Origin: Burkholderia sp. Bp8992
GTDB taxonomy: Bacteria > Pseudomonadota > Gammaproteobacteria > Burkholderiales > Burkholderiaceae
Assembly: GCF_003853705.1 (NCBI RefSeq)
Contig: NZ_QTQI01000004.1
Coordinates: 363,323-427,322, forward strand
Direction: 5' to 3'
Length of the DNA: 64,000 bases
Position numbers and translations under genes: made by a program. The number at the start of each line of letters is the position of its first letter. The stretch's first letter is position 1. The notes beneath the pieces are model-generated. The model ran no database searches, had not been told where the DNA came from, and saw nothing but the letters and a program-made list of their open reading frames with translations. Positions 54,089 to 55,755 of the stretch are shown here, piece by piece.

Positions 54089-54394
54089 ATGATGAAACAA
54101 CGACTTACGCCCTTCTTCGCGGCCACACTGCTGGCCGCCGCGGCGCCCGCCGTCGCCGCCCACGCCAGCTGCGAAGCCAAGCTCGACGCACTCGACGCGC
54201 GCATCGCCGAAGCCCGGAGTACCCATACCGAGGATCGCGTCGCCCGCCTGCGCGCGGTGCGCGAACGCGTCCGCCACTTCTGCGCGCGCGGTCACGGCCA
54301 TGCATCGGCCGCCCAAGCGCCGGCGCCTGACGCACGCTTGCGCGGCACGGCGCCCGACGCGACATCGCAGCCCGTCGCGCGGCAGCCCGCGTGA
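54089..54394 (+). CDS. Small exported protein, DUF1090-like
   Basis: A 101-residue protein with a signal peptide (about 26 residues, cleaved after AHA). The mature part is CEAKLDALDARIAEARS to VRERVRHFC, a helical Cys...Cys segment like DUF1090 (E. coli YqjC). A Pro/Ala-rich tail of about 35 residues follows the second cysteine. No strong ribosome-binding site precedes the tandem ATGs. Function of the family is unknown. It is divergent from rplM and convergent with the predicted sRNA. Confidence 0.7.
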   Translation: MMKQRLTPFFAATLLAAAAPAVAAHASCEAKLDALDARIAEARSTHTEDRVARLRAVRERVRHFCARGHGHASAAQAPAPDARLRGTAPDATSQPVARQPA

Positions 54395-54438: not shown

Positions 54439-54531
54439 GAAAAAAAGCCCGAACGGCTGGTTCGGGCTTAATCCACCTCTAGGAGGAGGGTGGAGGAGAC
54501 ATTCGGAGGTTGCCGCAGCGCGACAACCAAT
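54439..54531 (-). ncRNA. Predicted ~93-nt small RNA with two anti-Shine-Dalgarno loops
   Basis: Read on the minus strand, a complete transcription unit without a protein is visible. The promoter has TATAAT at 54544-54539, a 17-base spacer and TTGTGC at 54567-54562. The predicted RNA starts near 54531. Hairpin 1 is GGTTGTCGC / GCGGCAACC (54528-54508, one G-U pair). A single-stranded stretch follows, then hairpin 2 with CCACC / GGTGG (54493-54473). CTCCTCC occurs at 54498-54492, in the linker and edge of stem 2, and again at 54488-54482 in its loop. A strong terminator ends it: AAGCCCGAAC / GTTCGGGCTT plus seven Ts. Such C/U-rich motifs can pair with ribosome-binding sites, as in the cuckoo/CcsR-type RNAs; B. 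cenocepacia NcS27 is a possible relative, but identity is not tested. Confidence 0.75.
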
Positions 54532-54561
54532 GAGGCTCATTATACGAATGCGTCGCCCGCC

Positions 54562-54700
54562 GCACAAGAAAATTTGCATTACGAAATTCACCACCATGAT
54601 GTGAAATTTCATGGCAACGCGATCGAAAATAGAATTTCCCTTTTAAAATCAATCATCTGGTCCTGGCAGGTACGCGCAGGAATCGCCCTCGCCTAGAGCA
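54562..54700. promoter_or_regulatory. AT-rich region between sRNA and OsmC gene
   Basis: Unusually AT-rich for this genome. It contains GAAATTCAC (54583-54591) and GTGAAATTTC (54601-54610), an almost perfect inverted repeat, and the palindrome TGAAATTTCA (54602-54611). TTTTAAAAT near 54641-54649 could serve as an OsmC promoter element. It may hold binding sites for a regulator of both divergent units. Confidence 0.4.
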
Positions 54701-54848: not shown

Positions 54849-55271
54849 ATGGAATGCAAAGTAAGCTGGATGGGCCAGGACGGCATGGCGTTTTCCGCCG
54901 AGACCGGCAGCGGGCATCTCGTCGCGATGGACGGCGCGCCCGAGGGCGGCGGCCACAACCTCGCGCCGCGTCCGATGGAAATGGTGCTGCTCGGCACCGG
55001 TGGCTGCACGGCCTATGACGTGGTGCTGATCCTGAAGAAGAGCCGCCAGGAAGTCACCGGCTGCTCGGTCACGCTGAAGGCCGAGCGCGCGAGCGAAGAT
55101 CCGAAGGTGTTCACGAAGGTGCATTTCCACTTCACCGTCACGGGCCGCAACCTGAACCCCGGCACGGTCGAGCGCGCGATCAACCTGTCGCACGACAAGT
55201 ATTGCTCCGCGTCGATCATGATCGCGAAGACGGCCGAACTCACGCATTCGTTCGACATCGTCGCCGCCTGA
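54849..55271 (+). CDS. OsmC family peroxiredoxin-like protein
   Basis: A 140-residue OsmC/Ohr-fold protein. The two redox cysteines are present: Cys53 (GTGGCTAYDV) and Cys119 (HDKYCSASIM). PRPMEMVLLGTGGC is the usual helix start. OsmC proteins reduce organic peroxides with two cysteines. It lies in the YhfA-like subgroup by pattern (MECKVSWMGQDGMAF). The ATG at 54849 matches family starts. It converges with rnpB across a shared terminator. Confidence 0.9.
   Translation: MECKVSWMGQDGMAFSAETGSGHLVAMDGAPEGGGHNLAPRPMEMVLLGTGGCTAYDVVLILKKSRQEVTGCSVTLKAERASEDPKVFTKVHFHFTVTGRNLNPGTVERAINLSHDKYCSASIMIAKTAELTHSFDIVAA

Positions 55272-55340: not shown

Positions 55341-55755
<415 letters not shown>

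Follow-up and report, generated by a model that had tools for sequence, protein, structure and literature searches.

The closest described relative of the RNA presented here is ncS27 of Burkholderia cenocepacia J2315, a 92-nt member of Rfam family RF02278 that is encoded on the complement strand between BCAL3348a and BCAL3349, in the order -> <- -> (PMC4603805). The family is described as having been named for growth inhibition in E. coli (PMC5688073). According to previous studies, the J2315 transcript can be processed to a short form (PMC5688073), with the cut site given as CGA/AUG (PMC7377471). Overexpression of ncS27 was reported to slow growth of J2315, while silencing it with the reverse complement of its CU-rich part speeds growth (PMC5688073). 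Its level was reported to rise 9.7-fold in biofilm, 2.4-fold in stationary phase, 3.9-fold under starvation and 4.3-fold in glucose medium (Table 2 of PMC5688073), and the cause of sRNA accumulation was called unknown in that 2017 paper. A review counts phenylalanine and tyrosine catabolism among the functions affected by NcS27 (PMC10987360), and both ncS27 and ncS03 are on the list of loci with fitness effects in host models that a transposon screen of B. cenocepacia H111 gave in 2025 (PMC12013268). As well, cleavage of S17, the homologue in Bordetella pertussis, fits RNase E and yields S17S, a stable form of 67 nt, which was shown to repress BP2158 directly via Site 1, the repression being restored by compensatory mutations (PMC11722255).

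Identity, anatomy and conservation of the sRNA gene

The window, that is, the whole 64-kb stretch of DNA analysed here, carries a real sRNA gene on its minus strand at 54567-54440 (Table 1). The RNA matches RF02278 (Betaproteobacteria toxic sRNA) at 54501-54439 with 70.9 bits against a gathering cut-off of 50 (E 2.7e-12), over the full model (1-64). The order -> <- -> is found here as well, with a weak DUF1090 match, the sRNA and an OsmC gene as its members, and we take BCAL3349, from its position, to be OsmC. Since length, gene order, relative orientation and cut site all agree with J2315, the locus is assigned to ncS27. Thus, with a probability of roughly 0.93, the gene encodes the ncS27 orthologue, a double-hairpin RF02278 sRNA that most likely acts in trans as a repressor of many mRNAs through their ribosome-binding sites. 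The initial annotation had raised a relation to NcS27 as a possibility, to be followed up in Rfam and published sRNA lists; the family match, synteny, length and cut site turn this into orthology at the same locus. The RNA is already known in Burkholderia, and the system described here more fully is of the same kind; from raw sequence alone, the analysis confirms a regulator of carbon and amino-acid use that is conserved in Burkholderiales, and fixes its boundaries in this genome.

Table 1. Features of the ncS27 locus and its neighbours in the window
Feature	Positions	Strand	Basis
ncS27 primary transcript, 92 nt	54440..54531	(-)	5' end (about 54531) deduced from the -10 box and the published 92-nt length; 3' end is the last T
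5' leader hairpin, 9 bp, presumably removed on processing	54508..54528	(-)	folding; covariation
Processed short form (predicted)	54440..54502	(-)	CGA/AUG cut between 54503 and 54502; RF02278 match
First CTCCTCC, largely unpaired, seed	54492..54498	(-)	intact in 58/58 copies
Second CTCCTCC, inside hairpin loop	54482..54488	(-)	kept in 54/58 copies
Rho-independent terminator, 10-bp stem and T run	54440..54469	(-)	sequence, folding; at least six T in 58/58 copies
-35 box TTGTGC	54562..54567	(-)	sequence; 3/6 to consensus
-10 box TATAAT	54539..54544	(-)	sequence; 17-nt spacer from -35; 4 to 6 of 6 to consensus in 58 copies
Upstream element, two TTTCR-type half-sites 20 bp apart, joins -35 box	54562..54606	(-)	conservation profile
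Convergent neighbour, weak DUF1090 match, BCAL3348a counterpart by position	54092..54391	(+)	Pfam PF06476, 21.9 bits, under cut-off 24.4
Divergent neighbour, OsmC-family protein, BCAL3349 counterpart by position	54849..55268	(+)	Pfam PF02566, 62.9 bits

The features that the initial annotation had read from the letters were recovered: the TTGTGC-N17-TATAAT promoter on the minus strand by reading, and the two hairpins, the two CTCCTCC motifs and the 10-bp terminator with its seven Ts by sequence and folding. Its protein-free stretch of about 93 nt came out as 92 nt, and no frame is kept among the copies; indels in leader and loop break the reading frame, so a protein is unlikely. The 92 nt fold at -40.3 kcal/mol (z -5.46), an energy that none of 200 shuffles reached. 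The predicted fold consists of the 9-bp 5' hairpin, the 10-bp terminator stem and, between them, a 6-bp (+2) hairpin whose loop holds the downstream CTCCTCC; the first CTCCTCC overlaps the 5' arm of the middle hairpin by 3 nt, and two of the seven Ts (54446-54440) are paired. The short form would have the architecture of RF02278, i.e., two hairpins, the second being the terminator, and a CU-rich 5' end with 7 nt unpaired. Single CTCCTCC words are not enriched in the 64-kb window (3 found, 5.8 expected), and a pair of them within 20 nt on the same strand occurs there once; such a pair arose in 2 of 300 first-order Markov simulations.

Relatives were collected by one protein search with the neighbouring OsmC, and the best 80 of at least 580 were used. 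A model, R1, was built from an alignment, A1, of the window and 31 of the OsmC loci; these are 32 of the 58 copies, and A1 omits Cupriavidus, the leaderless copies, L051, L059 and further near copies. R1 found the sRNA upstream of OsmC in 57 of the best 80 of at least 580 loci; 32 of the 58 R1 matches are its own training rows and match by construction. The sRNA is absent from the other 23 of these 80 loci, where Rfam at its own cut-off also finds none; they belong to Massilia, Janthinobacterium, Duganella, Pseudoduganella, Rugamonas, Oxalicibacterium, one Protistobacter and one unclassified MAG. Three R1 matches directly after rpsI (23.6-35.5 bits) are, by eye, rpsI terminators and were left uncounted as false positives. 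In the window and the 57 loci from the best 80, GTCTCCTCCA and the T run are kept in all 58 copies and the second CTCCTCC in 54. Of the motifs whose loss in relatives had been named at the outset as an argument against the gene, the -10 box keeps 4-6 of its six letters in the 58 copies and the first CTCCTCC is present in all of them.

Compensatory changes had also been proposed as a subject for a model search, and among the 32 aligned copies both sides changed in 5 of 9 leader-hairpin pairs and in 2 of 10 terminator pairs, while 5 of 6 pairs of the middle hairpin are invariant. The covariation score of these copies is 0.170 against 0.109 when shuffled, with none of 500 shuffles as high; the pair-type count, one of five covariation measures, does not exceed the shuffles (288/500). 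The RF02278 family itself was matched at E 0.001 in 35 of 41 genomes searched, in 31 of them above the cut-off, with 4-7 matches in each of 25 same-genus genomes.

OsmC diverges from the sRNA at about 350 nt from the seed. A link to stress, which the initial annotation had suggested from this neighbour, is not supported: in Table 2 of PMC5688073, J2315 ncS27 did not change significantly in osmotic stress, low pH or low iron, while it rose in the four conditions given above. Just past OsmC, an RNase P RNA gene was identified (window 55342-55753, minus strand; RF00010, 293.9 bits). Six of the sRNA-bearing OsmC loci were scanned over their full length (L051, L057, L059, L062, L077 and L080), and all six contain this gene too, as does L091, a locus without the sRNA.

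A conserved upstream element and an exchangeable leader

The putative promoter was not listed by a simple promoter scan, because the scan asks for 4 of 6 letters per box and the -35 box has 3; the support for it comes from conservation, and the -35 box is weak. Upstream, the half-sites of the conserved element begin with TTTC at 54606 and TTTC at 54586. The profile of this region (50 of 56 copies anchored) reads TTTCRCATTRTG, followed at a distance of 20 bp by ATTTCGCAATGCAAATNTTCTTG, which leads into the -35 box. The second half-site and the -35 box precede the sRNA in all 58 copies with 15-24 of 25 letters (a count made without a shuffled control), and they are weakest in L051, L077 and L081. 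The 22-bp core of the element has one exact match in the 64-kb window and none in 100 shuffles. With up to 3 mismatches, it is present in 11 of 12 genomes searched, always 85 nt before the RF02278 match of the ncS27 copy, and the twelfth genome has a degenerate core at its sRNA. Altogether 11 of 13 core matches lie at the sRNA; the two elsewhere have 3 mismatches each, and the backwards control gave 0. As a strict palindrome, the first half-site was found in 1 of 12 genomes, away from the sRNA.

Neither the profile nor the core search revealed this element at the paralogue loci (L001-L025 and L140). A wider regulon was considered and set aside, since in 12 genomes the core hardly occurs away from this gene, and the search named no regulator. 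PhaR recognizes the motif TGC-N3-GCA, and control of the family by PhaR through such a motif at the -35 box was dropped as unsupported after a weak test: TTGC-N3-GCA occurs in some of 25 phasin loci, of which one strand was read, and its place is inconstant. In J2315, a common upstream motif was described for three of four homologues (PMC5688073), which may or may not be the element found here.

The cut site CGA/AUG is present in CCGAATGTC (54506-54498), and the short form would therefore start at 54502. The spacing between -10 box and seed falls into three groups: 34-47 nt in 46 loci and the window, 6 nt in five loci (four Caballeronia and Candidatus Paraburkholderia calva) and 103-125 nt in six Cupriavidus loci. 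Caballeronia L055 and L059 keep the short leader, so the split follows lineage and not strictly genus. In the 6-nt group, as judged from the letters, transcription would start at the seed itself, and the long Cupriavidus leader is presumably also cleaved. Since the three groups share the same mature end, this end is the fixed point and the leader is replaceable. The long Cupriavidus leader (L080-L083, L109 and L110) has its own conserved, possibly functional stretch of about the form ATTGAACGACGGC...GCCAGAGTGCGAAA, some 100 nt ahead of the seed.

It was speculated that the two-site element, private to one sRNA copy and kept from Burkholderia to Cupriavidus, serves a dedicated regulator, and that the same seed end (UGUCUCCUCCA) is reached by different routes in different lineages, whether by transcription starting at the seed, by cleavage of a hairpin leader of ~30 nt or through a ~100-nt leader that is presumably cleaved as well; we give this proposal even odds. 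If true, evolution has preserved the processed RNA end and the control site, and has replaced the leader between them. The element allows others to ask what switches ncS27 on, and the variation of the leader raises the question of whether its removal is part of control or an evolutionary leftover. Of all that is described here, these two points, the element and the exchangeable leader, deserve to be kept; they may already stand in the 2019 paper by Sass, which is reportedly devoted to NcS27, or in figures or supplements of other papers.

Predicted mode of action and rival explanations

The mode of action proposed here draws on the anatomy, conservation, covariation, synteny and complementary sites at relatives' gene starts observed in this analysis, as well as on the transcript, processing, growth effect and direct repression that others have demonstrated in homologues. 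A sigma-70-type promoter behind the conserved two-site element would produce the 92-nt RNA, and cleavage at CGA/AUG, with RNase E as the most likely enzyme, would remove its 5' hairpin leader. The stable product, seen in homologues and expected here, would be about 63 nt long and start with (A)UGUCUCCUCCA. Its largely single-stranded CU-rich 5' end, aided by the copy in the loop, is predicted to pair with the purine-rich ribosome-binding sites (..UGGAGGAGACA..) of numerous transporter and catabolic-enzyme mRNAs, blocking their translation, probably with Hfq. The outcome would be less uptake and use of amino acids, aromatics and carbohydrates as growth slows. A trans-acting translational repressor, as the initial annotation had it, is thus the most likely reading, since the published homologues repress by pairing with ribosome-binding sites.

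By analogy with these homologues, expression and targets are probable for this species too, and candidate sites were sought in its relatives. The pattern TGGAGGAGAC-N2-9-ATG occurs in 12 of 12 same-genus genomes and never backwards, with 1-11 rows per genome that include nested duplicates and a few antisense sRNA copies; the rows G012:C3, G018:C2 and G017:C3 are antisense to sRNA copies and were excluded as targets. Predicted sites lie before the start of an indolepyruvate ferredoxin oxidoreductase in 9 of 12 genomes, and in 2 further ones judging by an identical matched string; before an LctP-type permease in 4 loci, a CaiB-type CoA-transferase in 3 and an aldehyde dehydrogenase in 2; and before two aromatic-acid transporters in 1 locus each. 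These names are best NCBIfam matches, of which LctP alone passed its curated cut-off; the oxidoreductase was named from residues 1-501, and for the remaining three names the best match fell short of its cut-off. Complementarity at the oxidoreductase start spans 13-14 nt of UGUCUCCUCCACCC, a sequence of the ncS27 copy and not of the paralogues, with a duplex energy of -35.3 kcal/mol versus -26.8 with a paralogue. Among ten target regions folded against the seed, four favour the ncS27 copy and six a paralogue, and five lie only 1.0-1.7 s.d. from shuffled targets. Because each of the 25 same-genus genomes holds 4-7 family matches, targets are not assignable to the ncS27 copy alone.

Deep co-evolution of the oxidoreductase site was considered and rejected. 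The match is 14 nt long in 3 of 4 same-genus loci and 10 nt in the fourth, and the longest match in 26 other-genus loci is 0-10 nt; the site is confined to the genus, though the sRNA family is kept in 25 of those 26 genomes. As to targets inside the window, GGAGGAG occurs there just once more (18522), and no start codon follows it closely. In one relative's genome, the pattern GGAGGAG-N4-11-ATG gave 72 rows versus 22 for the backwards control. Two of the 72 rows, a nested duplicate and an antisense to another sRNA copy, were dropped, and 16 of the remaining 70 sites continue with AC (Fisher p 5e-4), extending the complementarity to GUCUCCUCC, although this AC could partly reflect spacer composition.

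The last result bears on a different account of the RNA, according to which it mainly titrates 30S subunits or a CU-rich-RNA-binding protein and does not address particular mRNAs. Such titration would explain the toxicity in E. coli after which the family was named (Kimelman 2012 is reportedly the toxicity paper), and it fits a seed that is a generic anti-Shine-Dalgarno as well as a very divergent relative below the cut-off, L133, which carries CACCUCCUU, like the 16S rRNA tail. However, the gene-start sites in that one genome reach past the Shine-Dalgarno into AC(A), a reach that points to particular mRNAs. S17S was described as repressing BP2158 by specific pairing, lost and restored with matched mutations, and as leaving exponential growth of E. 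coli unimpaired (PMC11722255). We therefore consider titration as the main function improbable.

The adjacency to OsmC in 57 of the best 80 loci might also suggest that the stretch only supplies the terminator and leader of some other transcript, divergent or antisense, or that it regulates OsmC in cis, and in either case has no function in trans. This is very hard to reconcile with a gene that is transcribed away from OsmC from its own promoter to its own terminator and that has paralogues with the same seed elsewhere in the genomes; moreover, the start of J2315 ncS27 was mapped and its 3' end confirmed by RACE, and silencing and overexpression had opposite effects on growth (PMC5688073). That the motifs came together by chance, with no gene at all, would agree with the promoter missed by the scan and the lack of enrichment of single CTCCTCC words, yet the Rfam E-value, the fold z-score, the conservation in 58 copies and the covariation, together with the published transcript of the orthologue, reduce its probability to practically nil. 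The trans-acting ncS27 orthologue is thus retained as the preferred reading.

Related RNAs and comparison with known systems

Several RNAs related to RF02278 lie at other loci. A double-hairpin relative, CGTCTCCTCCATGATGTCTC..., occurs in eight loci (L125-L132, e.g., L125:952-1020 on the plus strand) at 37-44 bits under the RF02278 cut-off of 50, and is preceded by a conserved region that differs from the one before ncS27. Each of 25 same-genus genomes has a match of about 36-45 bits, hidden by the Rfam threshold. The very divergent relative (L133-L135, three loci, e.g., L133:1013-1065 on the plus strand) reaches 32 bits with a fold z of -3.99; in L133 it lies downstream of a gene that by eye resembles an MFS transporter, and it carries TGACACCTCCTTGAC, i.e., CACCUCCUU. 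Genome G032, from another family of the order, has nine RF02278 matches, including a local cluster of three copies, one of them below the cut-off, within about 4 kb (C1, near 1.642-1.647 Mb).

Membership in other RNA families was not supported, including the two (cuckoo/CcsR and Rsa) whose C/U-rich loops the initial annotation had cited. Cuckoo/CcsR RNAs bear the loop motif CCUCCUCCC, which is absent from the 92 nt, where CCCUCCUCCU is found instead. The models for suhB/mmgR (RF00519) and anti-hemB (RF02837) gave 16.4 bits (cut-off 41) and 26.5 bits (cut-off 49.5), respectively, and there was no Rsa family of Staphylococcus among the 8 Rfam matches up to E 1. The likeness to anti-hemB and suhB/mmgR is that of small terminator-ended RNAs, anti-hemB also having a CU-rich first hairpin.

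The paralogues ncS03, ncS05 and ncS62 (loci L001-L025, L137, L138 and L140, matched to these published names by form and not by accession) share the start TGTCTCCTCCA and the two-hairpin form with ncS27. At L001-L025 and L140, a -10-like box stands directly before UGUCUCC, so these copies have no leader hairpin. By their description, the sibling NmsRs of N. meningitidis resemble ncS27 in down-regulating metabolism via an anti-Shine-Dalgarno, but they are tandem and aimed at the TCA cycle, whereas the Burkholderia copies are dispersed. S17/S17S is like ncS27 in its homologous CU-rich 5' end, which is cut from a longer form and binds ribosome-binding sites; as reported, it differs in a leader of about 120 nt against about 30 and in its much higher level in Bvg+ mode. 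Finally, as far as its published description goes, ncS27 of J2315 agrees with the window copy in gene order, relative orientation, the length of 92 nt, CGA/AUG, the CU-rich stretches and the terminator; the loop of the window copy is slightly longer (TAGA) than in its nearest relatives, and no functional difference from the J2315 RNA was seen.
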